Shown here piece after piece: positions 2,571 to 20,457 of a stretch of DNA of 21,399 nt. Numbering within the stretch: position 1 is the stretch's first letter; every line of letters starts with the position of its first letter. The notes beneath the pieces are model-generated. The model had not been told where the DNA came from. It worked only from the letters and a program-made list of their open reading frames with translations, and did not search any database. A program made the translations under genes and the position numbers. Location of the stretch: positions 1 through 21,399 of IMG/VR virus record IMGVR_UViG_3300008267_000470; one strand, given 5' to 3'. This DNA is from a virus.

Positions 2571-2578
2571 ATATTTAT
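2571..2578 (+). promoter_or_regulatory. ATATTTAT motif, candidate late promoter
   Basis: The 8-mer ATATTTAT ends 8 bases before the ATG at 2587 and sits directly after a terminator, a position that calls for a new promoter. No TTG lies at the -33 position. Confidence 0.55.
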
Positions 2579-2586
2579 TATCAACA

Positions 2587-3105
2587 ATGAGTACTTATAA
2601 TATTAAACTTGAGGATAAAGCCGCCTTTATAAATCGCCTTGATAAAATAGGGGTTGGTGTTGATAGTTATGAAGTTAAAGATGATAAGTTAAAAGGTACT
2701 TTTGAATTTATTGTAGATGATCCTGCAGTAGATAGTATGGTTAAAACTATTTTAAAACAAAGCCCAAAAATAACCCAAATTAAAGAAATGGAAAACAAAA
2801 AGAAACTAACTAAAGAGCAATTAATAAAAATAATTCGTGAAGAATTAGGTAGTACTAATAAAACAGAAAAAAAGAAATCCTCACTAAATGAAATTAATTG
2901 GGATATTTTAGGCCCAGCATTAGGTGTTACTTTACCAGGTATGGCTGCTGCTTTTGCCGCTATTAAATCAAGTGTATCTGCCGCTAAAAAGCAATTACAA
3001 GATCAAATTAATCCTGAAACAGGTCAACCATATACCGATGATGAAATTAAAGCAGGTGTAATGAGAGGATTAGTTGATAAGATGCAAAGTTTTGGTGGTG
3101 AATAA
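2587..3105 (+). CDS. Hypothetical protein (172 aa), own transcription unit
   Basis: Three parts are visible. Residues 1-66 alternate helix and strand (KAAFINRLDKIGVGVDSYEV, then KGTFEFIVDD), like a small alpha/beta domain. Residues 73-88 (KLTKEQLIKIIREELG) are an amphipathic helix also seen in the protein at 8014. Residues about 105-128 are hydrophobic and Ala/Gly-rich (LGPALGVTLPGMAAAFAAIK), then a charged tail contains PETGQPYTDDEIKAGV. The gene is isolated between two intrinsic terminators and has its own ATATTTAT motif, so it is probably expressed late and perhaps strongly. A virion-associated or head-internal protein would fit, but I do not recognise the family. Confidence 0.7.
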   Translation: MSTYNIKLEDKAAFINRLDKIGVGVDSYEVKDDKLKGTFEFIVDDPAVDSMVKTILKQSPKITQIKEMENKKKLTKEQLIKIIREELGSTNKTEKKKSSLNEINWDILGPALGVTLPGMAAAFAAIKSSVSAAKKQLQDQINPETGQPYTDDEIKAGVMRGLVDKMQSFGGE

Positions 3106-3131
3106 TTGATTTTAATTAAAAATAATAAACT

Positions 3132-3163
3132 TAGGCAATTCTATAAGAGTTGCCTATTTTTTT
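3132..3163 (+). terminator. Intrinsic terminator after the 172-aa gene
   Basis: TAGGCAA (3132-3138) pairs with TTGCCTA (3150-3156). Three more inner pairs, one of them G-T, give a 10-bp stem with a 5-base loop. Seven T bases follow (3157-3163). It starts 26 bases after the stop codon. Confidence 0.9.
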
Positions 3164-3207
3164 GGAAGTATAAAATTCTTTCCGTAACTTCAACCTACGA
3201 GCGGTTT

Positions 3208-3260
3208 GAAAAGGTTAAGGGAAAAAGGAAGGAATGAAAGGAATAAGGGAACATGAAGGG
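3208..3260 (+). repeat. Purine-rich tract
   Basis: These 53 bases are almost all A and G, with AAGGGAA at 3217-3223 and again at 3245-3251. The tract lies just upstream of the ATATTTAT motif at 3265 and has no start codon at Shine-Dalgarno distance. It could be an activator or loading site, or simply low-complexity sequence. Confidence 0.4.
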
Positions 3261-3263
3261 TCG

Positions 3264-3283
3264 TATATTTATATGTAAATATA
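3264..3283 (+). promoter_or_regulatory. ATATTTAT motif within an inverted repeat
   Basis: ATATTTAT (3265-3272) ends 15 bases before the ATG at 3288. It is embedded in an inverted repeat, TATATTTA (3264-3271), four bases, TAAATATA (3276-3283). A candidate late promoter for the genes at 3288 and 3495. Confidence 0.5.
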
Positions 3284-3287
3284 TATT

Positions 3288-3488
3288 ATGAGATATAAAA
3301 ACAACGTATTAGATAAATTAAGTCAAGCAGACGCCCTAGTAAATCGTCTTACTATTCAGGTAAATAGAAATCTAAGTAAAGAAGAAACAGTAGAAACTCT
3401 TACTATGTTGAAAGAACAAATTGAATCTACTCGTGAAATGATTTCTATTGAATCAGATGATTTTGAACAACAGTTTAGACCACAATAA
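3288..3488 (+). CDS. Small helical conserved protein (66 aa)
   Basis: A 66-residue, nearly all-helical protein starting MRYKNNVLDKLSQADALVNR and continuing with a charged heptad-like stretch (EETVETLTMLKEQIESTREM), which predicts a short coiled coil. Small proteins beginning MxYKNNVLDKL are, as I recall, widespread beside the sigma factor gene in marine T4-like phages, with no known function. It is followed six bases later by the membrane protein at 3495, and an ATATTTAT motif precedes it. A structural or assembly role is possible, but nothing in the sequence proves it. Confidence 0.7.
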   Translation: MRYKNNVLDKLSQADALVNRLTIQVNRNLSKEETVETLTMLKEQIESTREMISIESDDFEQQFRPQ

Positions 3489-3494
3489 TAGTTT

Positions 3495-3773
3495 ATGAAT
3501 GTAGTTATATGGGTGATTATAGTTCACCTAATTGAAGTAATAGGTATTGCCGGATATCTTTTAATTCATAAGAATAATAAGTTAGAACGAGTAATAGCCG
3601 AACAACAAAATTATATTGATACCATTAGTATTATTATTCAAGACTCCGAAAATACAATTAGAGAATTAGATGCCCGTGGAGCATTTGAATCTGATGATGA
3701 AGTTGGTACTTTCTTTAGAAATTTAAAACAAATTCAAGAAATACTAAACGATTTTAATACTCGCAAGAACTAG
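3495..3773 (+). CDS. Membrane-anchored coiled-coil protein (92 aa)
   Basis: Residues 3-24 (VVIWVIIVHLIEVIGIAGYLLI) form one strongly hydrophobic helix followed by a positive cluster (HKNNK), giving a single inner-membrane span. Residues 29-62 are a coiled coil. The end, ARGAFESDDEVGTFFRNLKQIQEILNDFN, is a stretch that I recognise as recurring in T4-like marine phages next to the late sigma factor gene. Function is unknown. The promoter of the following sigma gene overlaps the last few bases after its stop. Confidence 0.7.
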   Translation: MNVVIWVIIVHLIEVIGIAGYLLIHKNNKLERVIAEQQNYIDTISIIIQDSENTIRELDARGAFESDDEVGTFFRNLKQIQEILNDFNTRKN

Positions 3774-3805
3774 TTTGGTTCCGATATTTTTTGTTATTAT
3801 ATTCG
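3774..3805 (+). promoter_or_regulatory. Bacteroidota-like promoter for the sigma factor gene
   Basis: TTTG (3774-3777), 20 bases, TATATTCG (3798-3805), then the ATG at 3825. This is the same architecture as before the primase and the microprotein cassette. It would let host sigma factor transcribe the phage sigma gene. There is no forward ATATTTAT here, although its reverse complement ATAAATAT lies at 3816-3823. Confidence 0.55.
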
Positions 3806-3824
3806 ATATTAAACAATAAATATC

Positions 3825-4604
3825 ATGACATTATACTACGAAGAAGATAATTTAGATTTATTTTTAGAACCACAGTCTATCGCTTTAAATAAACGAGGTC
3901 AACCCCGTAAACGCAAACCGAAAGAACCCCGTGTATATTTTACTTCAGATACTGAAGAAGCAATTATTGAATATCTAGCTTCTACTGATCAAGATTTCCG
4001 CAATCGACTTTATAGTGACCGTATAGAGTATGCGTTTTATAAGCTTGCAGAAAATATAATTCATACCTTTAAATTTTACTACACAGACTCAGATACAATT
4101 GAAGAGTTAAAACATGAAGTTGTAACATTCCTACTTGAAAAACTTCACTTATACGATCAATCTAAAGGTAAAGCATATTCTTATTTTGGTACTATTGCTA
4201 AACGTTATTTAATTGTTTATAATAATAATAACTATAAGAAATTACAAGAACATGCTGACGTTGATGAATTAAATGAAGATAAAGGATTTTTACATGAAAC
4301 TATAAAAGAACAAGAAGAGCAATCTAATCCTGATAATTTTATTGATCAATATATCAGATATATCGATAAATATCTTTATCAATTATTTCCAAAACAACAA
4401 GATGCTCGTACAGCAGATGCAATAATGGAATTATTTCGTAAGCGCGAAACATTAGAAATATTTAATAAAAAAGCACTATACATTTATATTCGTGAAATAA
4501 CCGACACTTCTACCCCTCATATTACTAGAGTAACTAAGAAATTAGATACATTACGTACTCGTTTATTTAATGAGTATTATCAACATGGGTATATAAAGAT
4601 TTAA
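3825..4604 (+). CDS. 55: Late-transcription sigma factor, T4 gp55-like
   Basis: A 259-residue sigma-70-family protein of the reduced phage type. T4 gp55 is 185 residues, so this one is extended. Residues 66-140 correspond to sigma region 2: YAFYKLAENIIHTFKFYY (69-86), EELKHEVVTFLLEKL (93-107) and the diagnostic YDQSKGKAYSYFGTIAKR (110-127). In T4 this region binds the core polymerase and melts the simple -10-type late promoter. No region 4 for -35 recognition is visible; the C-terminus instead has HITRVTKKLDTLRTRLF. This predicts promoters without an upstream box, and seven such ATATTTAT sites lie in this window. Its own gene has a host-type promoter, so it is likely made earlier. Arg codons are mainly CGN, unlike the gp5-like gene downstream. 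Confidence 0.88.
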   Translation: MTLYYEEDNLDLFLEPQSIALNKRGQPRKRKPKEPRVYFTSDTEEAIIEYLASTDQDFRNRLYSDRIEYAFYKLAENIIHTFKFYYTDSDTIEELKHEVVTFLLEKLHLYDQSKGKAYSYFGTIAKRYLIVYNNNNYKKLQEHADVDELNEDKGFLHETIKEQEEQSNPDNFIDQYIRYIDKYLYQLFPKQQDARTADAIMELFRKRETLEIFNKKALYIYIREITDTSTPHITRVTKKLDTLRTRLFNEYYQHGYIKI

Positions 4605-4610
4605 GTATAC

Positions 4611-4618
4611 ATATTTAT
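4611..4618 (+). promoter_or_regulatory. ATATTTAT motif, candidate late promoter
   Basis: ATATTTAT ends 15 bases before the ATG at 4634 and would serve the block 4634-8000, whose genes overlap or touch. Confidence 0.55.
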
Positions 4619-4633
4619 TGATAAACATAAGCT

Positions 4634-5029
4634 ATGGCTAATTTTGACGATATAACCCTATTTGGTAGTACGTCATTATCCGATATATTTAAACAAATTC
4701 ATCGTAATAATAAGGATACTGACAAGCAAATTAACGAACTTATTGATGCTCTTAAACCACTTGCATCATCTAATGCAGGCTCTGCAGTAATGTTAATGCC
4801 TACTGTTAAAGATTTAATTGATGTTAATGTAAAAAATAACGAACAATTAATTAAAATGGCAGGTATTGCACAACGGGCATCAACTACTAACGGATCTTCT
4901 ACATCAGCTGATTTCTTTGACCCAGCAGAAATACAACAACTACTAGAAGAACAACGTGCTGTACAACAGGAAGGACAAAAATTAATACAAACCACTGAGA
5001 CTATACAACATCAAATTGATAATAAATGA
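4634..5029 (+). CDS. Conserved T4-like phage protein upstream of the hub gene (131 aa)
   Basis: Residues 8-45 read TLFGSTSLSDIFKQIHRNNKDTDKQINELIDALKPL, followed by MLMPTVKDLIDVNVKNNEQLIKMAGIAQR (about 54-82), then a Ser/Thr linker and a helical Gln/Glu-rich tail suggestive of a coiled coil. Proteins with this SLSDIFxxIxxN...KxLIxVxVKNxEQLxKLA pattern precede the gp5-like gene in marine T4-like phages. I know of no demonstrated function, but the position suggests a role in hub or tail assembly. The stop codon overlaps the next start (ATGA, 4 bases), so translation is coupled. Confidence 0.7.
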   Translation: MANFDDITLFGSTSLSDIFKQIHRNNKDTDKQINELIDALKPLASSNAGSAVMLMPTVKDLIDVNVKNNEQLIKMAGIAQRASTTNGSSTSADFFDPAEIQQLLEEQRAVQQEGQKLIQTTETIQHQIDNK

Positions 5030-6198
5030 GAATTAGGGAAAATTTAGGTGGATTATCAGCTCTAGCTACAAAAAATAAAATTCCTACTTCTACTCAGAAG
5101 TCTCAAATGGGAAGAGTAGCTGGGGTAATTACTACTAAAAATACTCCTAATAGAGAACTCTTTGAGAAATATAATGGATACTCAGGAATAGGAACAATAT
5201 TTTATATTGATTATAATCAATCAGTAAATGTAGATATATCTACAGTAGATTTAAATAAGTGTAGAGTAGCTCAACCTTTACTTTCAGGAGTACAAAGTTA
5301 TCCCTTAGTTGGTGAAGTAGTACAAATAGTAGATGGTCCTTCTCCTGTATCTCAAGTGTCAAATACAGCAACTCAAAAATATTACACAGGAACTGTTAAT
5401 ATATGGAATGATGTTCAACAAAATGCTCCTTCAACAGGTCAATTAGGTAAAACATTTATTGAATCTTCAGATATAAGACGACTTGTTCCATTTGAAGGAG
5501 ATAATATATACCAAGGAAGAAAAGGTAATGGTATAAGATTTGGAAGTACTGTAAAAAGATTCTCAAATATAAATGAATGGAGCTCAGTTGGAAATGATGG
5601 AGATCCTATCACTATATTAGTAAACGGATATGTAACCACAGACACTGGTTCTTTATCTCCTAATGTAGAAGAAATAAATAAAGAAAAATCTTCTATTTAT
5701 TTAACATCAACTCAAAAACTTCCCTTAACCCCCGGAGCAAGTATAATTAATCCTAGAGTTAATACTGTCGCTCCTAAAAATTATAATTCATCTCAGATAA
5801 TATTTAATAGTGATAGGATTACTCTTAATTCTAAAAAAGATGAAGTTTTATTATTTGCTAAAACTAATATAGAATTAAATAGCGATAATATTATTAATAT
5901 TAATGCAGGTGGGTTAGCACATATAAATTCACCTTCTATTGCTTTAGGTATAAAACCTGATGGAACATATCCTACAGAACCTGTTCTATTAGGAGGAAAA
6001 ACATATACTCTATTACTAGATATATGTGGTGCTTTAACCTCTCTTGCTGGGTTTTTATCTTCTGCTACTGTAGCTACATCTGAAGGAGCTATGGCTGTTA
6101 CTGATTGTAATTTAGCAGGAGAACAATTATTTGCCGATATAGATAATATATTAACTAAATTAGATACTATTACATCAAATAAAGTATATACAACATAA
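5026..6198 (+). CDS. Probable baseplate hub/spike protein, gp5-like (no lysozyme domain)
   Basis: A 390-residue, mostly beta protein. Residues about 50-110 (GIGTIFYIDYNQSV, then YPLVGEVVQIVDG) resemble the OB-fold found in gp5/VgrG-type spikes. Residues 151-175 (RRLVPFEGDNIYQGRKGNGIRFG) are a recurrent motif in phage hub proteins. Residues 263-310 (DRITLNSKKDEVLLFAKTNIELNS and following INAGGLAHI) look like the short repeats of a triple-stranded beta-helix. T4 gp5 carries a lysozyme domain between OB-fold and helix; none is visible here. The C-terminal 80 residues are helical and Ala/Thr-rich. It overlaps the genes on both sides (ATGA and TAATG), as in an assembly operon. Nearly all Arg codons are AGA/AGG. 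The gp5 assignment is from pattern and position. Confidence 0.55.
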   Translation: MRIRENLGGLSALATKNKIPTSTQKSQMGRVAGVITTKNTPNRELFEKYNGYSGIGTIFYIDYNQSVNVDISTVDLNKCRVAQPLLSGVQSYPLVGEVVQIVDGPSPVSQVSNTATQKYYTGTVNIWNDVQQNAPSTGQLGKTFIESSDIRRLVPFEGDNIYQGRKGNGIRFGSTVKRFSNINEWSSVGNDGDPITILVNGYVTTDTGSLSPNVEEINKEKSSIYLTSTQKLPLTPGASIINPRVNTVAPKNYNSSQIIFNSDRITLNSKKDEVLLFAKTNIELNSDNIININAGGLAHINSPSIALGIKPDGTYPTEPVLLGGKTYTLLLDICGALTSLAGFLSSATVATSEGAMAVTDCNLAGEQLFADIDNILTKLDTITSNKVYTT

Positions 6199-8000
6199 TG
6201 GCAACCCCTATAAATCTTAACCCAACTACTGTTCAACCATCCTCTCCTCCTACTCCCCCAGTATCAGGAAATATTGCCTCTTTAGCTAATCCTAGTACTT
6301 TATCTAATTTAAAAAATTCTCAATTACCTAAAACTTTTGGAGACCAGGTAAAAAATCAAGCTGTTTCTAAAGTTAAGCAGGGTTTAGTACAATCTACTTT
6401 AGCTAGACTATATGAAGAAAAAGCAAGGCTAATCCAAGCCGGAATTCAACTTGATATAGAACATCAAATTACTCTTCAAAAATTACAACAACAAAATACT
6501 CCTAAAAAACAAGTTCAAAACGGCCAAACAGTTGATATCCCAGCAGAGTTAAGTGATGAAGAATATCAAAAAGCAGTAGAAGCAGAAAACCAAAATTATC
6601 AAGAAGCTCAAACTCTTATTCAAACTCAAAAAGAACAGAATCAAAGAGATATAGATAATTATTTAAAAGATCCTTTTAAAAAACAAAAGGATGAATTAAA
6701 AAAATTAAAACTATCTAGAAAGCAAAAACAAAAAAGAAATAAAGAAGAAAAATCTAAAGCAAGAAAAGCAAGAATTAAATCTGTTTTAAAAAATGCTAAA
6801 AAAAGTTTAGCTCCTATTTTAACTCTTCTTTTAACTAATAAAATAGCTGAACTTGTAGCTCAAAATAGTAAAATAAAAAAATTAGTAGATGATACTAATG
6901 CTATAATTATAGAAGCTAATGAATCAGGGGATCCTACAAAATTAAATAATGCTAAAATAGCTAGAGATAATGCTATTAAAATTATTCAAGATAATGAAAA
7001 TAAAATTATAAAAATTAGAGACCAAATTAATAGAATCTCAACTTATATTAGTATATTCACAATTATAGTTAATATTATATCAGCTATTCCTATTCCTACA
7101 GCAGTTCCTCCTGGGATAGGTATTCCAACTAACTTAATTATTAAATTAGTTAAAATATTAGATAAAGCAAACCGTATACTTTTAACTTTAAGTGCTTTAA
7201 TTCCTATATTAATAGCATGTTTAGAAAAAGCTATTAGTATATTACAAGATTTAAGAGCACAATTATTAGATATAAATGGTCAACTAGAAGTAGCATCAGT
7301 TAGTGGAGTACCAGGAACTGAGTTTTTATTAAATAGTAGTAATGAAGGAGGAGTTGGAGGTGGAGCAGATACAAATAATGGTGTAATTCAAACTGAATAT
7401 AAAGGATTTAAATTTGCTATTAAAGAAGAAACAGGACCTAAAGCTATAGTAGTAAGAGGATATAAACGCCGTTATGCTGTAGCTATAGATGTAAATAATG
7501 TAGAAGTATTAAAAAGTGATTTATCTTTTACATTAGATCCTAACGATCTAATTGAACAATTAAAAATAGCAATAGATAGATTAGTATTAAGAAATGGAGG
7601 AACATTATCTTCTTCCGGTAATTCTGATAATACTGAAAATACTGATATTAATGGTGTTAATAATAATGGAAGTCTTACTCCTAATAATCCTTTATCATCC
7701 TCTAGTGGAGGAGGTGGATATAGTTCTCTAATAAGTTCTCTTAAAGTTTTAACGGATACTCCTCCTCAACCTGAAACTATTAAAGGCCCAACAGGAACTT
7801 TATCAACAAAAATTCCATTAAGTATTCCTAAAAAAGCATTTTATGCTGGCTTAGTATTAGCACCTATTCCACCTACACCACCAAATGTGAAAGTAGATGC
7901 TGCTTTTATACTTAAAAAAGATGTAGAATGGCAAGCAAGATATAAAGCATACCAGAGAAGAAATCAAAATATAGTAAATAACACATCTTCTTCATCTTAA
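6198..8000 (+). CDS. Large coiled-coil/hydrophobic tail protein (600 aa), tape-measure candidate
   Basis: Residues 1-30 are Pro/Ser-rich. Residues 40-205 are highly charged and helical (long Lys/Glu/Gln coiled coils, very basic around 160-200). Residues 204-222, 283-310 and 327-346 are hydrophobic stretches, including PIPTAVPPGIGIP. Residues 401-440 (YKGFKFAIKEETGPKAIVVRG and on to RRYAVAIDVNN) form a beta module, followed by Ser/Gly/Asn-rich linkers and a Pro-rich end. The length is close to T4 gp29 (590 residues), the tape-measure/hub protein, and coiled coil plus hydrophobic core fits that role, but sequence similarity is not evident to me. It starts on the last base of the preceding stop and lies between gp5-like and gp25-like genes, so a baseplate-hub role is the main alternative. 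Confidence 0.45.
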   Translation: MATPINLNPTTVQPSSPPTPPVSGNIASLANPSTLSNLKNSQLPKTFGDQVKNQAVSKVKQGLVQSTLARLYEEKARLIQAGIQLDIEHQITLQKLQQQNTPKKQVQNGQTVDIPAELSDEEYQKAVEAENQNYQEAQTLIQTQKEQNQRDIDNYLKDPFKKQKDELKKLKLSRKQKQKRNKEEKSKARKARIKSVLKNAKKSLAPILTLLLTNKIAELVAQNSKIKKLVDDTNAIIIEANESGDPTKLNNAKIARDNAIKIIQDNENKIIKIRDQINRISTYISIFTIIVNIISAIPIPTAVPPGIGIPTNLIIKLVKILDKANRILLTLSALIPILIACLEKAISILQDLRAQLLDINGQLEVASVSGVPGTEFLLNSSNEGGVGGGADTNNGVIQTEYKGFKFAIKEETGPKAIVVRGYKRRYAVAIDVNNVEVLKSDLSFTLDPNDLIEQLKIAIDRLVLRNGGTLSSSGNSDNTENTDINGVNNNGSLTPNNPLSSSSGGGGYSSLISSLKVLTDTPPQPETIKGPTGTLSTKIPLSIPKKAFYAGLVLAPIPPTPPNVKVDAAFILKKDVEWQARYKAYQRRNQNIVNNTSSSS

Positions 8001-8001
8001 A

Positions 8002-8009
8002 ATATTTAT
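8002..8009 (+). promoter_or_regulatory. ATATTTAT motif immediately before a start codon
   Basis: ATATTTAT ends only four bases before the ATG at 8014. If it acts as a -10 box, the transcript would start at or just inside the start codon, giving a leaderless mRNA. Alternatively the site is not used or transcription starts elsewhere. Confidence 0.4.
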
Positions 8010-8013
8010 TTAT

Positions 8014-8370
8014 ATGAACGTTAAATTATTTAAAAAATTAATTAGAGAAGCAGTAATCGAGGCACTTCATGAAGAACTGCCTGATATTATCAATGAAACC
8101 TTAGTAAAACAAAATAAACAACCTATTCGCGAAGGTAAAACATTTAACTTTACTAGTGCTGATGCTCAATTACCCGGAGATGTACGTAGTTCATTAGCTG
8201 CTAAAATGGGTATGGAATTTGGTTTTCAACCACAACGCAATGATTTAAAAGTTATTGATGCTGTTGATGAATCAACTGGTGAAAAAATTAACCCATATTT
8301 AGCATTTATCAATGATGCAGCTAATAACATGACAGCTCAAGATAGATCAGGATTAAGACAATTAGATTAA
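8014..8370 (+). CDS. Small virion-region protein with N-terminal LIREA helix (118 aa)
   Basis: Residues 1-30 (MNVKLFKKLIREAVIEALHEE and following) form an amphipathic helix closely resembling the KLTKEQLIKIIREEL stretch of the protein at 2587. The rest is soluble and mixed: FNFTSADAQLPGDVRSSLAAKMGMEFGFQPQ and INPYLAFINDAANNMTAQDRSGLRQLD. I do not recognise a domain. It lies one base before the gp25-like gene and after the 600-residue protein, so an assembly or baseplate role is likely. Unlike the two genes upstream it uses several CGN Arg codons. Confidence 0.65.
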   Translation: MNVKLFKKLIREAVIEALHEELPDIINETLVKQNKQPIREGKTFNFTSADAQLPGDVRSSLAAKMGMEFGFQPQRNDLKVIDAVDESTGEKINPYLAFINDAANNMTAQDRSGLRQLD

Positions 8371-8371
8371 T

Positions 8372-8782
8372 ATGCCTACTCAAACAATACGAGTCAACCC
8401 ATTAGACTTGCAAAAAAACATTGCAATTGGGGTATCTTTACCTTTTAGTGGACCTTCTGGTCCTTTTAATAAAACATATAGTACTAAAGATCAAACCAAA
8501 TCTAATTTGATTAATTTAGTTCTTACTAATAAAGGTGAAAGGGTATTTAATCCTGAATTTGGAGCAGATTTAAAAAGAGTATTATTTGAAGGAATAACAG
8601 AAAATATTAATGTAACTATACAAAGACTTATAGTAGAAAATGCTAGTATATTTGTACCAGAAATAAGCATTTCTGAAGTAGAAACAATACAAAATCCAGA
8701 TAATAATTCCTTACTTGTAACTATAAAATATAACTTGATAATATCAGGAACAGCAGATCAAATAACAGTAGAATTTATATAA
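8372..8782 (+). CDS. 25: Baseplate wedge subunit, gp25-like
   Basis: A 136-residue protein, matching the usual size of the gp25/W family (T4 gp25 is 132). GERVFNPEFGADLKRVLFEG (residues 55-74) is the hallmark of the family: turn, short helix and the Phe/Leu-rich segment that packs in the wedge core. Before it, DQTKSNLINLVLTNKGER is the usual lead-in helix, and the C-terminal half (ISISEVETIQNPDNNSLLVTIKYNLI) is the expected beta-sheet. In T4, gp25 with gp6 and gp53 forms the wedge core that starts sheath assembly. The gp6-like gene follows two bases later, as expected. Confidence 0.88.
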   Translation: MPTQTIRVNPLDLQKNIAIGVSLPFSGPSGPFNKTYSTKDQTKSNLINLVLTNKGERVFNPEFGADLKRVLFEGITENINVTIQRLIVENASIFVPEISISEVETIQNPDNNSLLVTIKYNLIISGTADQITVEFI

Positions 8783-8784
8783 AA

Positions 8785-10644
8785 ATGGCAACAAACAGAG
8801 TATCATATTTAAATAAAACTTTTAGTGATTTTAAGAATAATCTTATAAATTATGCTAAAACTTATTTCCCATCAACATATAATAATTTTTCAGATGCCAA
8901 TCCTGGGGCTTTATTTATTGATATGGCATCATATGTAGGAGATGTATCTTCATTCTATTTAGATACTCAAATTCAAGAAACTTTTCTATTATATGCTAAA
9001 GAAAAAGAAAATTTATTAGCCCTTTCTTATGCTTTAGGATATAATCCAAAAATATCGTACGCTTCCAATGTATTAATTGATATATACCAATTAATACCTA
9101 CTAAGGATAACCCTAACAACCCAGGAAATTTAATAATAGATCAAGATTATTATTTATTAGTACCTGAAAATACAATAATATCCTCAACAAGTACAGGAAC
9201 TAAGTTTTTGACTATAGAATCTGTAGATTTTAGTGATGAAAATAATAGAGAAGTAACTCTTGTTACTGATAGTAATTACTTTCTATTAAAAAAATCAGTT
9301 AAAGCAATCTCAGCAGAAATTAAATCTACTACATTAACTTTTAATGGTCCTGCTGAAAAATTTGCTATAAGAACTATAACTGATAATAATATACTTCAAA
9401 TATTAGATGTTACAGATGCTGAAGGAAATAAATGGTATGAAGTTCCTTATTTAGCCCAATCTACTATATTAGATAGAATTACTAATCCTAATTACATAAA
9501 TGGTACAGATGATGTTCCTTATTTAATTAATTATAAAAAAGTTGATCGTAGGTTTGTATCTAGATTTCTTTCTGATAATTCATTGCAAATAGAATTTGGA
9601 TCAGGAATAGGATATTCTTCTGATAACTCTATTATTCCTAATCCTGATACTATATCATTAGGTTTAATTCCTGGAGTTAGTAATTATACAAATAATTTTA
9701 ATAAAGCTTCTGTATTTTTTACCCAAGAATATGGTTTAGCTCCTAGCAGTAATTTAACAATAAGATATCTTGTTGGAGGAGGAGTACAATCTAATGTACC
9801 TGCTAATGATTTAACTAATATAAATAAATCAAGAATTATATTTAAAAATACTACAACTGTTCCTCCATTAAGTACTACAATATTAAATAGCGTAGCTTCA
9901 TCTAATCCTTCCCCAGCAGCTGGAGGTAGAGGTGGAGACGAAATTGAAGAAATTCGTAATAGTGCTTTATATTCATATCAATCTCAATTACGTGCTGTAA
10001 CTAAAGAAGACTATATGGTACGTGCTTTATCTCTTCCAACTGAATATGGCTCAATAGCTAAAGTATATGTTACACAAGATATGATTAGTACACCTTTACC
10101 TACCCCAACAGTAGCAACAATAGAAGAGCGTAACCCTCTATCATTGGATATGTATGTATTAGCTTATAACTCAGATAAAAAATTAACAACAGCTTCTACT
10201 ACTTTGAAGCAAAATTTAGCTCTTTACATTAACCAATATAGAATGGTTACTGATGCTGTTAATATTAAAAATGCTTTTTATATTAATATTGGTGTTAATT
10301 TTGACATAGTAGTTAAAAGTGGATTTAATAATAATGATGTTATTACTAATTGTATATTAATACTTAAAGATACGTTTAATATAAATAATTGGAACATTAA
10401 TCAACCTATAATAATATCAGATATTGTTGGTACTTTACTTCAAGTAAATGGTGTTCAATCTGTAACTAAATTTGAAATTATAAATAAACAAGATTCAACA
10501 GGAACAACATACTCTCAATATACATATGATATATCAGGAGCTACAAGACAGGGTAATATATATCCTTCTATAGACCCTAGTATATTTGAAGTACGTTATC
10601 CTGATACTGATATTCAAGGTAGAGTAGTACCATTTGTAATTTAA
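8785..10644 (+). CDS. 6: Baseplate wedge subunit, gp6-like (baseplate J)
   Basis: A 619-residue protein, close to T4 gp6 (660). The N-terminus is typical: SDFKNNLINYAKTYFPSTY, then ALFIDMASYVGDVSSFYLD (about 47-65), then FLLYAKEKENLLALSYALGY (about 71-92). The baseplate-J core appears around residues 385-435, with GGRGGDEIEEIRNSALY, then RAVTKEDYMVRALSL and SIAKVYVTQD. The C-terminal domain contains a second alpha/beta unit (MYVLAYNSDKKLTTASTTLKQNLALYI and FYINIGVNFDIVV). gp6 forms the continuous ring that joins the wedges of the baseplate and changes shape at sheath contraction. The gene is directly coupled to gp25. Confidence 0.88.
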   Translation: MATNRVSYLNKTFSDFKNNLINYAKTYFPSTYNNFSDANPGALFIDMASYVGDVSSFYLDTQIQETFLLYAKEKENLLALSYALGYNPKISYASNVLIDIYQLIPTKDNPNNPGNLIIDQDYYLLVPENTIISSTSTGTKFLTIESVDFSDENNREVTLVTDSNYFLLKKSVKAISAEIKSTTLTFNGPAEKFAIRTITDNNILQILDVTDAEGNKWYEVPYLAQSTILDRITNPNYINGTDDVPYLINYKKVDRRFVSRFLSDNSLQIEFGSGIGYSSDNSIIPNPDTISLGLIPGVSNYTNNFNKASVFFTQEYGLAPSSNLTIRYLVGGGVQSNVPANDLTNINKSRIIFKNTTTVPPLSTTILNSVASSNPSPAAGGRGGDEIEEIRNSALYSYQSQLRAVTKEDYMVRALSLPTEYGSIAKVYVTQDMISTPLPTPTVATIEERNPLSLDMYVLAYNSDKKLTTASTTLKQNLALYINQYRMVTDAVNIKNAFYINIGVNFDIVVKSGFNNNDVITNCILILKDTFNINNWNINQPIIISDIVGTLLQVNGVQSVTKFEIINKQDSTGTTYSQYTYDISGATRQGNIYPSIDPSIFEVRYPDTDIQGRVVPFVI

Positions 10645-10659
10645 AGGTTATAATCTACC

Positions 10660-10667
10660 ATATTTAT
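10660..10667 (+). promoter_or_regulatory. ATATTTAT motif, candidate late promoter
   Basis: ATATTTAT ends 19 bases before the ATG at 10687, in a 42-base gap after the gp6-like gene. It would serve 10687-17515, where the gaps between genes are 1-3 bases. Confidence 0.55.
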
Positions 10668-10686
10668 ATGTAGTAATCATGTAATT

Positions 10687-11790
10687 ATGGCAATTTATAA
10701 AATATTCCCGGAAAAATCCGCAACTCTTTATTCATATTATCCTACATTAAATTCTGGATTAGATGAAATATTAGAACTTAGTACTTATGAGTCTATAGCA
10801 GGTACTAATGAAATATCTCGTCTTCTTATCAAATTTCCTCAAAGTGAAATACTTGATGTAATTAATAATAAAGTAAGTGGGGCATCATATAGTGCCTCTT
10901 TACATTTATCTCTAGCTAATGCTTCTCAGATCCCATTAGATTATACTATATTTTGTCATCCTTTAGCAGCAGATTGGAATGTAGGAAATGGAAAATATTC
11001 AAATTCACCTATAACAACAGATGGTGTTAGTTGGCAATTTACAGACCAATTAAGTGGTAGTGTATGGTTTACAGCAGGTAATTTTCCCTCAGAGACCACA
11101 GGTTCATATACTGGGAGTGGAGTAGTTGGGGGTGGTTTATGGTGGACCGGTTCTAGTTATATATCTACTCAATCATTTAATCATGTTGATTCTTTAGATA
11201 TTGATTTAAATGTTACTAATACAGTAGTTGCCTGGTATGAAAGTACACTTTCTAATAACTACGGATTTATATTAAAACACAGTAGCTCATTAGAATTTAC
11301 TACAGCATCTAAATTTGAACTTAAATATTTTTCAGCAGAAACCCATACTATTTATCCTCCATGTTTAGAAATAAGATGGGATGATTGGGTATATAATACT
11401 GGTTCATTATCTGTTGTAACATCACCTAATATAGTAGCTACGTTAGCTAATAATCAAAGTGAGTATCAACAAGGATCAGTTCAACGTTTTAGAATAAATG
11501 TACGTGATAGATACCCTGCTAGAGCCTTTCAAGCTACTTCTGTTTATCTTAATAATAAAGCTTTACCAACAGCTTCCTATTATTCAATAAAAGATTTGGA
11601 TACTGAAGAAACTGTCGTAGATTACGATACAACATATACTAAAATTAGCTGTGATTCAACTGGTATGTATTTTGATGTATATATGAATGGCTTAGAACCA
11701 GAACGTTACTATCAGATACTAATTAAAACTACAATAGGTGAAACAACATTAGTATTAGATGATAATTACTATTTTAAAGTTATAAGATAA
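10687..11790 (+). CDS. Structural tail/baseplate protein (367 aa), DNRLRE-like N-terminus
   Basis: The first 40 residues (FPEKSATLYSYYPTLNSGLDEILEL) and the following SRLLIKF strand resemble the DNRLRE beta-sandwich found in secreted and phage surface proteins. Up to about residue 235 it is Ser/Thr/Trp-rich with the pattern of a beta-sandwich (DWNVGNGKYSNSP, GVSWQF). From residue 258 (SEYQQGSVQRFRINVRDRYP) a second domain begins, which recurs in marine T4-like phages; it ends VDYDTTYTKISCDSTGMYFDVY and GLEPERYYQILIKT. The position between gp6 and the giant protein, and the size (T4 gp8 is 334), make a wedge component possible. I see no direct gp8 similarity. Confidence 0.6.
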   Translation: MAIYKIFPEKSATLYSYYPTLNSGLDEILELSTYESIAGTNEISRLLIKFPQSEILDVINNKVSGASYSASLHLSLANASQIPLDYTIFCHPLAADWNVGNGKYSNSPITTDGVSWQFTDQLSGSVWFTAGNFPSETTGSYTGSGVVGGGLWWTGSSYISTQSFNHVDSLDIDLNVTNTVVAWYESTLSNNYGFILKHSSSLEFTTASKFELKYFSAETHTIYPPCLEIRWDDWVYNTGSLSVVTSPNIVATLANNQSEYQQGSVQRFRINVRDRYPARAFQATSVYLNNKALPTASYYSIKDLDTEETVVDYDTTYTKISCDSTGMYFDVYMNGLEPERYYQILIKTTIGETTLVLDDNYYFKVIR

Positions 11791-11791
11791 T

Positions 11792-12133: not shown

Positions 12134-12136
12134 TAA

Positions 12137-15100: not shown

Positions 15101-17515
15101 ACAGCTCAATATAATTCAACATCTTCTTTATCTACGACATATGGTACATTCTACACAGCATTATCGTCATCTAATAACACTATGGGGTGGTATGATGGTG
15201 AATTAAGTGGAAGTACTGTTGATATTAATCAATATTTTGAAGACAATTATAATCCATATTTACAAGTAACAGGAACGATAAATAAAAATGATTTTAATCA
15301 TTCTGATTGGAATATATTACTAAATAATGTTTCACAAAGTGTAACGTCCACCACTAGACAACGTATTGAATATATTTGGGGAACTACAGGTAGTCTTACC
15401 CGCTCTGCAGAATTACAAGATTCTTATTTATCATTACAATCTTATAATAATTCTCGTTATAATGGAACTAAATTAACTAGTTTATATATTAATACGTATA
15501 CTAGTGCATCATATACTGGATCAGACGGTCTTACTATTGTAGAAGGAGATAATTCATTTGGTAAAACAGCTGTAATAGATAGATATGTTCGTCGAATAGG
15601 ATTATTTACTCAAATAGAAAGTAGTTCATTTTTATTAAATAGAAATAATGTTGCTTTAAAATATCTTGTAGATGAATTTGGAGGATTAACTGAATTAAAC
15701 CTTATTAATAATAACTGGGAAGATGTTCAGAGAACATTTGTAATGAGTGGAACAGGATCTGTATCTTTATTTGATACTAAGCAATATAGTAATCAAGTAT
15801 CAACTAATGGAGATAAAATAATATTTGATAGTGGGTATTCATACTTTCCAGTTTTTTATTATTCAACAGAATCAAAAGGACCAGACCCAAAGAGATATTT
15901 CGATTCAGTTATACCTCAACAAGACCAATTTACTGAAGCAAGGATGTTAGTTCCTCTTAATAGTAATAATCGTATTATTGGATCTATAAATCCTACCTCA
16001 GGAATAGGAGTACCAAATACTGGTCCTAATGGAGCTCCTTATTTTACAACAGCTTCTTTTGGAACTAAATTTGTTACTAATCTTTTTAGAAATATAGTTC
16101 AAGGAAGTGGTTTTACAATAGGAGGAGCAGATAATTCAACCTCAACCCTTCCTTATACCAATTCTCCTACATATCTCATACCTCAGGGAGGTCAATATAA
16201 AATAAATGTTAAATTAAATGTAGAAGTATACTCAGATGGAACTAATTTTGGAACTACAACATTTCAAGCAGGATTATATAGATCACGAAATAATATTGAA
16301 ACTTTAGTTGAAGGAACCTCTCTTAATACTAAAAGTGCTATATATAGTAATATTTCTTTCTCAACTGATCCAAATTCATCACCTGGTGTATTATATTTAA
16401 ATGCTGGGGTTGCTTTCTCCCGTCCTGATCCATTTGGAAATCCTGTATTTCCCGAACCATACCCCAATGGATTTACATGGCAACCTTTCTCTTCAATAAC
16501 ATACCCTGCTCCAGTAACTATTGGAGGACAACAAACAAGCATTATTTATAAATATGTTATTTCATCAACATCATCTCCTAGACTTCAATGGTCAAATCTT
16601 AATTATTTAACTGGAATAAATGGTACTTATTATTCAATATATCCTTCTCTTTTCTTTGATGGCGGTCTTAGAATAGATCAAACTAATTTTACTGATCCTG
16701 ATGGAAGTTGGATATATGACTTTGTACCTCCGTCTTCTCCAACTCCTTATCCTTTATATACTAGTACTAATGCTGAAAATGTCCCTAAAGGAGTTATAGC
16801 ACTAGATATGAGTATTGCCCCACCAACTCCTGTAGAATTTAATCAAGGTGATAAAATCATATATAAACTCAGCATATCTAATAATACCAACCCAGCAGCT
16901 ATAGCTTATATACCCACAGCATCAGCCATTTATCCTCAACAATTTGTAATATCTACTTTAGATACTTCATTAGGAAGTTATCCTTTTACAATAGCTAATC
17001 CTTATTTTATATCTGCTAGTAGTACTTCATCTTTAGAATTCAATAATGGTTTATCTAACTTTTTTGGAGGAAACTATACATTTTTACCAACATTTGCAAC
17101 AGGGTCTACAGTTTATACAAGTAGTTTATATGACAAATATGGAGATATAGATTATCCTTTTAATATATCAGCAGGAGATATATTTTTAGTAGTAGACGAT
17201 AATGGTAGAACATTTGAGTCAGCTATAAAAAATATTACTAAAAGAAACGATGATATTATAGAAATAGAACTACTTGAAAAAATGTCAGATATATTAAGAC
17301 AACAAATCACCCAACTTAAAACATTAGAACTTTTATTTTTAACTAAAAGAAAAGACGAAACAAATGTAATATTAAGATTTAAGAAAAGATTTGGTAAAAC
17401 ATCTTATGGTTTTTTAATACCTGAAAATTTAGCTCCTGATGTATTAGATAATATTGATACTATTACTAGGCAAGTAAAACAAAAACTCTTATCTGATCAA
17501 CAAAGCTCAACATAA
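12137..17515 (+). CDS. Giant baseplate/tail protein (1792 aa) with inserted FISUMP domain
   Basis: N-terminal part (1-590): beta-rich region with DPVQDLQNAEYSSGEFSVRY (about 115-135), then long helical and Ser-rich stretches, ending in DLVSELYKRIYHNLPYLLKTKGT and GLDALITVFGLYTG. Residues 597-786 are a FISUMP/Fib_succ_major domain (C-type-lectin-like): IGNQVWSAFNYQG, AKYGKLYNWYAV, GFAPEGWHIPTITEWRIL, RASGSNYW, GLWAAS, HAVRFVKD. The host fold resumes at NLLNIREFGG (796), followed by MNYIDISFSPQTQLD. Later blocks include RYNGTKLTSLYINTYT, FGKTAVIDRYVRRIGLFTQI and DGDKIIFDSGYSYFP-like repeats known from marine T4-like phages. The C-terminus is helical and charged. The position suggests a gp7-like wedge role, though T4 gp7 is only 1032 residues. 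The inserted domain probably binds a cell-surface ligand. Confidence 0.7.
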   Translation: MADNIKIIGNIVNTTVINRYSEEDTNLLFPEKLQENFGGKDDYIEYYIYDIGGNLLRTNYNYLNYKLPPSTGLTPSVSTPPNTTDNIQTTEVGITSTLASPTSSIYPIIEIDPVQDLQNAEYSSGEFSVRYNLFQNILSNYIDSALFVKEISQDRTEVRLASVTLSDDEIEQVTLSLIDEINNSPYYVEYLLNFGNNEQFVAVNIALNKDPEGNEVLFKLYQPLPLNIQEKQTLWIVKEKVSPYNFEINLDKLITPPPPPTLKGPNFDIPIDTNQGTISSTYSNYSTLVSGLQSLQSSSYQKILNLLNSQSVQINVNYTVSESADFGNFVFFGSAYKRVENFYNKVKQIEGYNNFITTYTPFVNTTASLQTEINLYSSSINEIISQFDGFESYLYFESSSYTWPKSGSAKPFELLSTISSSVQTWYNNLTSSAKIYDLNNYNNLEYSIPSYVKEDETNQPFLTFLNMVGHYFDNIWVYIKSIPDINLANNNLNYGVSKDLVYEKLKSLGLKLYNSQAGESVDQFLIGANTGSSVWDNNFTVTGSYLNNIPRKDLVSELYKRIYHNLPYLLKTKGTVTGLDALITVFGLYTGIDGVQIGNQVWSAFNYQGTTYRNGDPILEAQSDADWAAANTAQRGAWCYYSGSYEYAKYGKLYNWYAVNDSRGFAPEGWHIPTITEWRILTSSLGLTPTEITLKLRASGSNYWNNNTLSTNLSGLTLVGNGTRDASQGGTPASTWTNNNQRLRVGAGLWAASINRFVVFSGNTVTGITIGAASAGIGHAVRFVKDNPNTYDDTDNLLNIREFGGALKSNYTKGYNSNKVRVIENSIEPGVIVSSLSPIMSLQTYPTASSQFRDSDMNYIDISFSPQTQLDAHISRSISTISPTWDIDTYIGDPRQQYLNSYPDLDFQRSFYQFRGTGATRRYTASLLDYNRYTRLVEFFDNSLFKMLSDFVPERTSLSTGVTFNSPILERNKVAYANPTNTISQSVPTAQYNSTSSLSTTYGTFYTALSSSNNTMGWYDGELSGSTVDINQYFEDNYNPYLQVTGTINKNDFNHSDWNILLNNVSQSVTSTTRQRIEYIWGTTGSLTRSAELQDSYLSLQSYNNSRYNGTKLTSLYINTYTSASYTGSDGLTIVEGDNSFGKTAVIDRYVRRIGLFTQIESSSFLLNRNNVALKYLVDEFGGLTELNLINNNWEDVQRTFVMSGTGSVSLFDTKQYSNQVSTNGDKIIFDSGYSYFPVFYYSTESKGPDPKRYFDSVIPQQDQFTEARMLVPLNSNNRIIGSINPTSGIGVPNTGPNGAPYFTTASFGTKFVTNLFRNIVQGSGFTIGGADNSTSTLPYTNSPTYLIPQGGQYKINVKLNVEVYSDGTNFGTTTFQAGLYRSRNNIETLVEGTSLNTKSAIYSNISFSTDPNSSPGVLYLNAGVAFSRPDPFGNPVFPEPYPNGFTWQPFSSITYPAPVTIGGQQTSIIYKYVISSTSSPRLQWSNLNYLTGINGTYYSIYPSLFFDGGLRIDQTNFTDPDGSWIYDFVPPSSPTPYPLYTSTNAENVPKGVIALDMSIAPPTPVEFNQGDKIIYKLSISNNTNPAAIAYIPTASAIYPQQFVISTLDTSLGSYPFTIANPYFISASSTSSLEFNNGLSNFFGGNYTFLPTFATGSTVYTSSLYDKYGDIDYPFNISAGDIFLVVDDNGRTFESAIKNITKRNDDIIEIELLEKMSDILRQQITQLKTLELLFLTKRKDETNVILRFKKRFGKTSYGFLIPENLAPDVLDNIDTITRQVKQKLLSDQQSST
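13925..14494 (+). other. FISUMP (Fib_succ_major) domain insertion inside the giant protein
   Basis: About 190 codons, residues 597-786. The order of motifs is that of the family: IGNQxW start, AKYGKLYNWYA, PEGWHIPTxxEW, a short GLTLVGNGTRD stretch, a W-A-A-S box and a closing HAVRFVKD. Base composition is similar to the flanks, so the insertion is not obviously recent. Confidence 0.8.
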
Positions 17516-17533
17516 TAATTTTATAATTTTAAT

Positions 17534-17541
17534 ATATTTAT
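17534..17541 (+). promoter_or_regulatory. ATATTTAT motif, candidate late promoter
   Basis: ATATTTAT ends 24 bases before the ATG at 17566, in a 50-base gap. The palindrome GTATATAC follows at 17543-17550. It would serve the genes 17566-20450. Confidence 0.55.
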
Positions 17542-17565
17542 AGTATATACAACAAATATTAAACA

Positions 17566-18231
17566 ATGGCAATATTAAATCCAACAGTAGTAACAGTAGA
17601 TGCTATTTTAACTACAAAAGGTCGTGAATTATTAGCTCGTAACGATGGTTCTTTTCAAATTACACAATTTGCATTAGCAGATGATGAAGTAGATTACACA
17701 TTATATAACCCAAATCAACCATCAGGATCTGCATTTTATGGTGAAGCAATTGAAAATATGCCTATATCTCAAGCTTTCCCTGATGATACGCAAATAATGC
17801 GCTATAAATTAGTAACGCTACCACGTGGAACATCACGTCTACCTGTTATTAGTTTAGGATATAATACAATTACACTTAAACAAGGAGCTTCATTAACAAT
17901 TACTCCTCAAACATTAAATTATCTTGGAGCTGCAAGTTCATTTGAAACTAATGGATATACAGCAACAGTAGCAGATGTTAGATTAGTGTCTGCTTTCCAA
18001 GGTACAGGTATTACAACTACAACAGTTGGGGATCAAAATTTAAATACAACTACAGGAGCTGTATTATCAACATCAGCAATTGGTACCTCATTTACTTTAA
18101 CAGCAACAACAGTTAATACATTATTTGGTACTTCATTAACTACACTATCTACTACAATTACTGTAGTTGGTAGAGATAGTGGTGCTAGAATTACTATTCC
18201 TTTAAATATATCTAAAGTATCAACAACCTAA
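17566..18231 (+). CDS. Conserved structural protein (221 aa), FALADDEVDYTLYNPNQP family
   Basis: The N-terminal half contains DAILTTKGRELLARNDGSFQITQFALADDEVDYTLYNPNQP and FYGEAIENMPISQAFPDDTQIMRYKL, a highly recognisable block that recurs in tail regions of marine T4-like phages. The phrase LTTKGRELLA followed by FALADDEVDY also resembles baseplate-associated proteins. The C-terminal half (about 100-221) is Thr/Ser-rich and beta, resembling an immunoglobulin-like or decoration domain (VRLVSAFQGTGITTTTV and following). Arg codons include several CGN, unlike the 5026 gene, which may point to high expression. It is first in a three-gene group. A structural role is likely; the exact position in the virion is not known. 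Confidence 0.65.
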   Translation: MAILNPTVVTVDAILTTKGRELLARNDGSFQITQFALADDEVDYTLYNPNQPSGSAFYGEAIENMPISQAFPDDTQIMRYKLVTLPRGTSRLPVISLGYNTITLKQGASLTITPQTLNYLGAASSFETNGYTATVADVRLVSAFQGTGITTTTVGDQNLNTTTGAVLSTSAIGTSFTLTATTVNTLFGTSLTTLSTTITVVGRDSGARITIPLNISKVSTT

Positions 18232-18248
18232 TAAAATAAAAATATAAT

Positions 18249-19247
18249 ATGTCATTTTCAAGATATAATACAGAAGATTCAGTAATAAGCTCAGAAACCG
18301 TAGTACGTGGGATGTGGACAGGGGATAGTTATACTTTAAATAACTTTGTTACACAAAGTTCTATTTTAGAATCTTATGTAGATGTATATAATTTAGCTAT
18401 CTCTAACCCTAGTACAGTAGTTCAATTTAGCGTAGAATATGGTCACATAGCTGGATCCGGATCTGTAGCTTATAATTCGGCTGTTTCTGGTTCTTCTCCT
18501 TCTCGTGCTGTATATGGTAAATACAGAAATTTAATTTATGGTGATGAAAATACTAATTTTAGCTTTGATGGAGGAGCAACAACAGCACAACAAATATATG
18601 TAATTAATATTAGTAGGGATAGATATAAACAATCAATCCAACCTGGTTCTCTTAATTTAACTTTAGCAAGTGCTAGTAGTCCTACTTCTGTCAATACTAT
18701 TAGATTAACAGATGATAGTAATACAACTAGTTTAACTCGCTTTATAGGATCCAATAGAGTATTTTATATAATTAGTGGAAGTAACGGTAATGCTTATTCA
18801 AGTAGTGCAGCTGTACTTTCAACATATTATGGTATGATGTTCCCTGATTTAGGAATTATAGTATTAGATGCATCAGGATCTTTACGTCCATTTATATCAT
18901 CTTCAAATGTAGCTTCTGTAACTTCTCCTGTATATAATAACGCAGGATTTGTTAGATCTATGATATGGGGAAATAATTTTCAACTTAGATCATCTGAAGT
19001 AGTATCATCACGTTATTTCTTTACGCGTATTAAAAACAGTGAATATAATTATACTACAAATCCATCTGTTATAGATGCTAATGGTAATTTATTATATACT
19101 ACATTAATTAATAGTCCTCAAACATTTGTCACTACAGTAGGGATGTATAATGACAATAATGAATTATTAGCTGTAGCTAAATTATCAAAACCACTTACTA
19201 AAGACTTTACAAAAGAAGCCTTAATTAGAATCAAATTAGATTATTAA
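18249..19247 (+). CDS. Structural tail protein A of a tandem paralogous pair (332 aa)
   Basis: A Ser/Thr/Asn-rich beta protein starting MSFSRYNTEDSVISSETVVRG. Landmarks shared in order with the next gene are RDRYKQSIQPGSLNLTL (about 123-140), FYIIS, a hydrophobic FPDLGIIVLDA strand (about 198-208), YFFTRIKNSEYNYTTNPSVI (about 256-275) and the end TTVGMYNDNNELLAVAKLSKPL. The pair therefore comes from a duplication. These proteins form part of the tail tip or baseplate periphery in relatives, as far as I recall. No catalytic motif is seen. It is preceded by an A/T-rich leader without a Shine-Dalgarno sequence and ends three bases before its paralogue. Confidence 0.6.
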   Translation: MSFSRYNTEDSVISSETVVRGMWTGDSYTLNNFVTQSSILESYVDVYNLAISNPSTVVQFSVEYGHIAGSGSVAYNSAVSGSSPSRAVYGKYRNLIYGDENTNFSFDGGATTAQQIYVINISRDRYKQSIQPGSLNLTLASASSPTSVNTIRLTDDSNTTSLTRFIGSNRVFYIISGSNGNAYSSSAAVLSTYYGMMFPDLGIIVLDASGSLRPFISSSNVASVTSPVYNNAGFVRSMIWGNNFQLRSSEVVSSRYFFTRIKNSEYNYTTNPSVIDANGNLLYTTLINSPQTFVTTVGMYNDNNELLAVAKLSKPLTKDFTKEALIRIKLDY

Positions 19248-19250
19248 TGC

Positions 19251-20450
19251 ATGTCATCATTCAAAAGATTAAACAAGGCGGACGTTACGACAACTCTATA
19301 TGCAGCTAATAGACTGTGGAATATAGCATATACTAATGTTACTCTTAACCAAAATGCCTTCTATTATACAGGTTCTAATGTTACTTTTAGTATAAATGAA
19401 ACACAAAATAATGGTCAATATCCATCATTAATTTATGATTTTGTAAATCATTTATTTTATCAATCATATACTGGTAGTTTAAATACAGGTTCTTTAATGT
19501 TTAATACAAATACATTAGAATCTGCATCTCAACAACGTCCTACATCTTCTTATTTTAATTATAATTCTAATCCTTTATTAATTAAACAATTTCCTTCTGG
19601 AGCGGGGCAATCCATAGGAGTAGGTGTTATAAATCAAGATTTATATGGCTCTAAAATATTACCAAATAGTTTTCAAATAAGTGCATCCTCTCTTAATTCT
19701 GGTGTCCCTGATATTCTTATTAAAGATGATGGATACGGTAATTTATACGATGTAGCTCAAGCTCAATCTTTACCAATAGCTTTAAATTATGTTACGTTAG
19801 ATTATTTTGAAAATAATGGAGTTATAGGATCAGGAATATATTTTGTTGGAAATATATTTTATGCTCACGGAATAGCAGTTATTACTAATCCTGATTATCA
19901 AAGAGTTTTAAGTATAAATTCTTGTAATACTTTTACTGTTACTCCACTTATAACTTCTGATATTATTTATACAGATTGCCTAGGAATCAATAGACTTATA
20001 GCTAATACATTAACTACTCAAACAATATGCGCAATCTCAGGTACAATAGTTTTTGATAAGGGTTTTGGAAATATATCTACTCCTGGAATTCTTTGTAATC
20101 CACCTAGAACGTATACTTTTCAGAATGAGCATAGAATATATGAAAATGAAGTACGTTGTATAGTTAAAGAAAGTGATTTCAATTTATCATATAATCCTTC
20201 TCTATTAAAGTATGGAGGTCAAACAATAGTACCTATATCAGGAAGCGCTAGTAATGGTTATACTACAACAGGATCATTTGATAATAGTACTGTTAAAGAT
20301 TTTGCTACGGCCTCATTTTTCCAACCTTACGCAACAACAATAGGTTTGTATAATGATAACAATGATCTATTAATGGTAGCTAAACTAGCTAAACCAATAA
20401 TGTTATCTCCAGACACAGATATGACATTTATTGTTAAGTATGATCTTTAA
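19251..20450 (+). CDS. Structural tail protein B of the pair, with a four-Cys insert (399 aa)
   Basis: A paralogue of the 18249 product: NQDLYGSKILPNSFQIS (about 128-144), IYFVGNIFYAHGIAVITNPDY (about 196-216), EVRCIVKESDFNLSYNPSLL (about 300-319) and ATTIGLYNDNNDLLMVAKLAKPI near the end match its landmarks. Between the second and third lies an extra block, residues 222-285, with Cys225, Cys243 (YTDC), Cys260 (TICAISGTI) and Cys282 (GILC). This pattern of YTDCxG followed by ICA-x-GT and G-x-x-C recalls a small module seen in Bacteroidota phage tail proteins; disulfides are unlikely before virion release, so its role is unclear. An ATATTTAT motif begins on its last stop base. Confidence 0.6.
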   Translation: MSSFKRLNKADVTTTLYAANRLWNIAYTNVTLNQNAFYYTGSNVTFSINETQNNGQYPSLIYDFVNHLFYQSYTGSLNTGSLMFNTNTLESASQQRPTSSYFNYNSNPLLIKQFPSGAGQSIGVGVINQDLYGSKILPNSFQISASSLNSGVPDILIKDDGYGNLYDVAQAQSLPIALNYVTLDYFENNGVIGSGIYFVGNIFYAHGIAVITNPDYQRVLSINSCNTFTVTPLITSDIIYTDCLGINRLIANTLTTQTICAISGTIVFDKGFGNISTPGILCNPPRTYTFQNEHRIYENEVRCIVKESDFNLSYNPSLLKYGGQTIVPISGSASNGYTTTGSFDNSTVKDFATASFFQPYATTIGLYNDNNDLLMVAKLAKPIMLSPDTDMTFIVKYDL

Positions 20451-20457
20451 TATTTAT
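20450..20457 (+). promoter_or_regulatory. ATATTTAT motif, candidate late promoter
   Basis: ATATTTAT begins on the last base of the preceding stop codon and ends 13 bases before the ATG at 20471. Confidence 0.5.

Follow-up and report, generated by a model that had tools for sequence, protein, structure and literature searches.

Using comparative genomics we analyzed a 21.4-kb linear virus record of ~30% G+C (IMG/VR record IMGVR_UViG_3300008267_000470; "the window" below means this whole stretch of DNA), in which the AT-only octamer ATATTTAT recurs ahead of plus-strand genes. We infer, with a probability of about 0.87, that this word is the single-box late promoter of a far-T4-like phage lineage, and that it is read by a phage sigma factor, the product of gene 3825, on the host core RNA polymerase. 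The T4-type baseplate genes of the window and its kinship with Flavobacterium phage immuto point to its membership in the far-T4 phages, which have been tied to Bacteroidota in published papers that give no promoter analysis. Relatives of gene 3825 are plentiful in viral contigs, with at least 599 confirmed; the named ones come from immuto (48% protein identity), the uncultured phage LR756508 (41%) and Microcystis phage Mel-JY01 (37%).

Genes were called by a simple longest-ORF method, and in the window they run on the plus strand from 1576 onward. Exact copies of ATATTTAT stand on this strand at 2571, 3265, 4611, 8002, 10660, 17534 and 20450, all of them in gaps preceding genes, with 8, 15, 15, 4, 19, 24 and 13 nt respectively between the end of the word and the start codon; the seven copies 4-24 bases upstream of start codons reported in a preliminary description of this DNA are thus all in place. 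On the minus strand the word occurs at 3816, 4366 and 16548. The plus-strand sites, as predicted late promoter boxes, and a neighboring hairpin are:

2571..2578, + strand: predicted late promoter box ATATTTAT ahead of gene 2587, with a start predicted near 2583
3132..3156, + strand: terminator-like stem-loop upstream of the 3265 box
3265..3272, + strand: predicted late promoter box ahead of gene 3288, with a start predicted near 3277
4611..4618, + strand: predicted late promoter box between the sigma gene, which it directly follows, and gene 4634, with a start predicted near 4623; kept in 50/50 relatives
8002..8009, + strand: predicted late promoter box before gene 8014 at a fixed 4-nt spacing; predicted start at 8014, the A of the ATG
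10660..10667, + strand: predicted late promoter box ahead of gene 10687, with a start predicted near 10672; the orthologue in four long related genomes (G001-G004) has the box too
17534..17541, + strand: predicted late promoter box ahead of gene 17566, with a start predicted near 17546-17547; the orthologues in G001-G004 and in immuto have the box too
20450..20457, + strand: predicted late promoter box ahead of gene 20471, sharing one base with the stop of 19251-20450, with a start predicted near 20462

The raw frequency of ATATTTAT equals that expected from shuffling (10 copies in the whole window against 10.2), as would befit chance occurrence in AT-rich gaps, and the signal accordingly lies in position rather than in the total count. 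Within the 17 gaps (557 nt) there are seven sense copies versus 0.40 expected, a number reached in 0/5000 per-gap dinucleotide shuffles, and the word ranks first of the 256 AT-only 8-mers in these gaps. A post-hoc control that admitted any 8-mer attained a maximum of five gaps in 2000 shuffles, versus seven for ATATTTAT. These per-gap shuffles, along with the strand asymmetry and conservation presented below, refute chance, which we regard as a practically negligible explanation. The gaps sum to 0.56 kb, and not to the total of about 1 kb given earlier, while the statement that the motif occupies nearly every wide gap of the structural region save that before 18249 is borne out: between 2501 and 20470, seven of the nine gaps of at least 10 nt hold the word, the other exception being the gap at 3774-3824 before the sigma gene, which has an antisense copy only. 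A standard sigma70 promoter scan gave no signal (111 found vs 123 expected). Phage T4 was run through the same pipeline as a control, and its late word TATAAATA was recovered as the top 8-mer.

Across the window and 80 related loci, ATATTTAT occurs 385 times in sense and 60 times in antisense orientation, and inside gaps 244 versus 22 times. These loci are not statistically independent, and better tests are provided by comparisons of 50 loci at the sigma gene and of five long genomes scanned whole, namely immuto and G001-G004. Of all 8-mers in the gaps of G001-G004, ATATTTAT is enriched the most; immuto additionally accepts CTATTTAT as a second form, a variant by which the word first described is to be amended. 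Over the five genomes the word is found in 101/156 structural-module gaps versus 84/370 other gaps (p 1.1e-19), a difference significant in each genome singly; the exact odds ratio, 6.3, depends on module borders that were delimited by hand from tblastn mapping. The genome-wide count upstream of late genes, proposed earlier as a check, thus yields an enrichment that is specific to strand and position and strongest before structural genes. By tblastn mapping of the immuto genes, the box is retained ahead of the terminase, portal, phoH, tube and hub genes, of the gene that follows sigma and of gp107, although protein identity is down to roughly 40-65%, and across the five genomes it is also kept before baseplate genes. 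An upstream A-rich signal in the 80-locus profile was discarded as a promoter element, as it probably derives from orthologous coding sequence; independent genomes were therefore used for the fine structure of the box.

The position of the box relative to the sigma gene is equally regular. The relevant features in the window are:

3774..3777, + strand: TTTG, the -33 element of the sigma gene's host-type promoter, from subgroup comparison
3798..3805, + strand: TATATTCG, the -7 element of the same promoter; a perfect TATATTTG in relative L013
3825..4604, + strand: phage sigma factor gene, 259 aa, with sigma region 2 (about residues 40-143) and a predicted C-terminal helix-turn-helix (215-226, 230-254)

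A late box lies directly after the sigma gene in 50/50 sequences (window included), and within 120 nt before it in 0/50. The sigma gene itself has a promoter sequence of the form TTTG-N20-TA: among those members of the window's subgroup with the TTTGG element, 22/22 have a spacing of exactly 20 nt. In more distant relatives it follows its neighbor without a TTTG-type element. A box that comes after and never before the sigma gene, combined with a host-type promoter at that gene, is the order that a cascade requires. As a side observation, the sigma homologue at G012:C73:13633-14442 (locus L138), from a flavobacterial metagenome bin, has one TAA read through in the matched stretch.

The Bacteroidota housekeeping promoter combines TTTG at -33 with TAnnTTTG at -7. 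This form is found at the sigma gene and at immuto's early genes, whereas the late sites have neither the -33 element nor the G of the TTTG. In immuto, TTG lies exactly 20 nt upstream of 16/16 early-type sites TATATTTAGG (15/16 of these between 60.9 and 76.3 kb), compared with 2/28 late sites of the structural module having TTG at the same offset. Likewise, none of the seven window sites has TTG at the host -33 offset, as the preliminary description had noticed at the sites it checked; where a TTG is present its offset is 26 or 19, while the immuto early promoters use 24. It is in this light that one may consider the box as a variant -7 element read by the host primary sigma, with no role for the phage factor. 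The host pattern TAnnTTTG overlaps TATATTTA, the immuto early promoters contain TATATTTA too, and the promoters of F. johnsoniae themselves have a weak -33 element (PMC6847099). However, the key T and G of TAnnTTTG are not conserved at the boxes (the preceding base is T in 43%, and position 0 is A or C), and the invariant placement of the box after the sigma gene is left without a reason.

The distribution of the box in other phages also bears on this question. No sigma of this family was detected in the flavophages phi38:1 and 11b, and neither shows sense enrichment of ATATTTAT, the motif count for phi38:1 covering its first 50 kb. Conversely, Mel-JY01, recorded from the cyanobacterium Microcystis (the host being taken from the record), has the box in 11/36 structural gaps, with none in antisense. 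A first k-mer pass on Mel-JY01 had missed ATATTTAT among the top words, which were dominated by words of many other gaps; it was found by direct reading of the structural gaps. Thus, the box appears to follow the sigma factor rather than the host or the ribosome, and we consider its reading by the host sigma alone unlikely.

These data speak also to whether the box is a leader signal for translation initiation or mRNA processing rather than a promoter. Its location 4-24 nt before start codons in a lineage almost devoid of Shine-Dalgarno sites could be taken that way; Shine-Dalgarno-like sites precede 0-4% of genes in the window, immuto and G001-G004 versus 29% in Mel-JY01. Nevertheless, the spacing to the start codon varies widely, reaching 33-40 nt for most annotated virion-gene sites of Mel-JY01, and this retention of the box at a longer leader argues against both a translation signal and a host box. 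Several boxes directly follow terminator-like hairpins, and the feature to which the box is tied is a purine 12 nt downstream. A role in the leader is therefore an even weaker contender than the host sigma.

The fine structure of the box is consistent with promoter recognition. In a substitution scan over the five long genomes, ATATTTAT was enriched 13.5x and CTATTTAT 8x, with most other single changes near or below 1x; enrichment is lost on single substitutions, apart from the first-base change from A to C, while C at the third base and changes of the last base are partly tolerated. At sites at least 8 nt from the start codon in the same genomes, position 12 counted from the box start is A in 0.75 and G in 0.19 of cases, and position 11 is almost never G. 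This purine is probably the transcription start, for it matches the spacing expected behind a -10-type element. The structural gaps hold no upstream element of comparable information and no -35 box.

Among orthologues of gene 8014 the spacing between box and ATG is exactly 4 nt in 51/51, despite 14 different 4-nt spacers, all of which end in a pyrimidine. With a start about 12 bases after the box start, this fixed spacing would place the first transcribed base on the A of the gene 8014 ATG, and the late mRNA of this gene is probably leaderless. The compactness of the gaps could contribute to the fixed spacing, but the lack of any length change among such divergent spacers points to constraint.

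We then turn to the sigma protein itself, which the preliminary description had called a gp55-like factor without visible region 4. Pfam searches recover Sigma70_r2 in the product of gene 3825 (E 0.0014, below the curated cut-off) and no Sigma70_r4, whereas the predicted fold has a conserved C-terminal helix-turn-helix (215-254), so that the description stands by sequence searches and the absence of region 4 is unproven. Several full sigmas align with the model through residue about 250, at high rmsd. The model, based on 31 relatives, has a mean pLDDT of 73 and a pTM of 0.42, values at which the placement of domains is not reliable. Its best match by VIA-align is gp55 in the T4 late open complex (7d7c_F; Z 9.7, rmsd 3.4 over 111 residues), covering residues 37-152; other sigma region 2 structures score nearly as high, indicating that the match shows sigma region 2 and not gp55 specifically. 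Foldseek returned no significant match for the model, though many of the weak ones were sigma factors, and sequence searches of the PDB with the protein matched no sigma.

The parallels with T4 are a single -10-like box without a conserved -35 element, a diverged phage-coded sigma (PMC7892883), the location of the box before virion genes and the predicted fold of residues 37-152. The differences are the word, here (A/C)TATTTAT, the C-terminal helix-turn-helix, and the clamp: gp45-type clamp domains (PF09116, PF02916) were found over the cut-off in none of seven lineage records, some possibly incomplete, while PF09116 was found in 4/4 T4-like phages. Activation through the clamp, as in T4, therefore probably does not operate here in that form. 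Likewise, the tails of the sigma family end in forms of HGYIKI, with no resemblance to the clamp-binding tail LDFLYE of T4, although several cyanophage gp55s also lack LDFLYE. We offer as a tentative proposal, one that we hold to be rather doubtful, that a single sigma fuses a gp55-like region 2 to a C-terminal helix-turn-helix standing in for region 4 or for gp33, in T4 a co-activator in its own right, and that it would work independently of a clamp on an A/T-swapped T4 late word, with one conserved late transcript beginning exactly on an AUG and hence leaderless.

The relation between the two words raises the further idea that the boxes mark late promoters of the T4 type (TATAAATA) lying on the opposite strand, inasmuch as ATATTTATA contains the reverse complement of TATAAATA and these gaps hold an excess of antisense TATAAATA. 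The excess is, however, a consequence of ATATTTATA itself; moreover, the next base is T in about a quarter of sites, 3/7 window sites are ATATTTATT, and nearly all genes of these genomes lie on one strand, so that antisense promoters would have no targets. In the lineage sense TATAAATA is not above shuffles, whereas ATATTTAT is. We find this idea highly improbable.

A more distant comparison is furnished by the far-T4 Rhodothermus phage RM378, which encodes a distant homologue of the sigma, the hypothetical protein Rm378p020 (L147 17032-17826; match 17095-17814; E 1.2e-6). In its tandem gaps TATTTAA is enriched (14 sense vs 3 antisense), with TTATTTAA rather than ATATTTAT as the word, which suggests a TATTTA core common to RM378 and this lineage.

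Taken together, these observations are compatible with the following cascade. Host RNA polymerase with the host sigma would read TTTG-N20-TATATT before gene 3825, and the phage sigma thus made would join the host core polymerase, its region 2 recognizing (A/C)TATTTAT around -12 to -5 without contact at -35. Transcripts would start some 12 bases past the first box base, which at gene 8014 falls on the A of the ATG, and the baseplate, tail, capsid and packaging modules would be switched on, starting with the gene immediately after the sigma gene. The link between sigma and word is drawn from their co-conservation. As to the earlier proposal that this is the late promoter of the phage lineage, it gains from the enrichment before structural genes, the sigma-gene boundary, the absence of the word in the sigma-less flavophages and its presence in Mel-JY01, but the box is not exclusive to late genes.

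Several points weigh against this reading. About a third of the structural gaps in the five long genomes lack the box. Nor is it purely late, for some non-structural genes have it as well, in G001-G004 partly, and in G003 often, together with an upstream GGCAAA-like box. Among the seven sites of the window, one (17534) lacks the purine at position 12. LR756508 shows no enrichment of ATATTTAT despite a sigma 41% identical. Finally, an hhalign comparison of the sigma family profile with a gp55 profile built from database records (the T4 query matches record X01804 at 100% over 185 residues) is weak, with probability 1.2 and E 0.045, collinear over 82 columns.

Two further types of sites were observed in relatives. 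Many non-structural genes of G001-G004 (L098-L128; e.g. G003 1865, 2156, 2759 and 7723) have a GGCAAA/GTCAAA-like box ~17 nt before TATATT-type elements (TATATTCAC in G001, TACATTTAC in G004); the pooled profile has a G-rich signal at -17 that reaches its greatest strength at non-structural sites, where it accompanies the GGCAAA-like box. These may be early or middle promoters of a class of their own, marked by an activator-type box. In the tandem gaps of the megaphage LR756508 (L097, L154-L173) there are five TCTATTTAA sites, and at four of these TGAG comes a few bases later; TCTATTTAA is possibly its diverged promoter word, five sites being too few to claim this.

Other genes of note in the window are:

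8372..8782, + strand: gp25-like baseplate wedge gene, a predicted late gene 3' of the 8002 box
8785..10644, + strand: gp6-like baseplate wedge gene, a predicted late gene
20471..20899, + strand: SegE-type GIY-YIG endonuclease gene by Pfam match, behind the 20450 box

The last of these is labeled "NAD synthetase" by PHROG 447 and at the matching place in immuto (KNV73_gp100), likely a propagated misannotation given the Pfam match. Positions 1-2000 of the window differ in composition (G+C 0.39 vs about 0.30 elsewhere) and have no clear gene run before 1576, as a different module or region might.

A genomic survey did not detect the T4 core genes of transcription regulation in far-T4 phages, and noted that their transcription patterns might differ (PMC4360716). 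We found no report of this promoter in the literature searched, which left most subscription papers and the original immuto description outside its reach. While the logic of T4-type late transcription is known, the word, and probably the helper proteins, differ in this family. For the far-T4 phages, which are common in both fresh water and the sea, the present finding would supply a host-to-phage sigma cascade and a promoter word that can be searched in hundreds of contigs, with predicted starts that are testable in the cultured phage immuto. It may also allow T4-like late transcription to be compared, in nature, between phages that have a sliding clamp and phages that do not.

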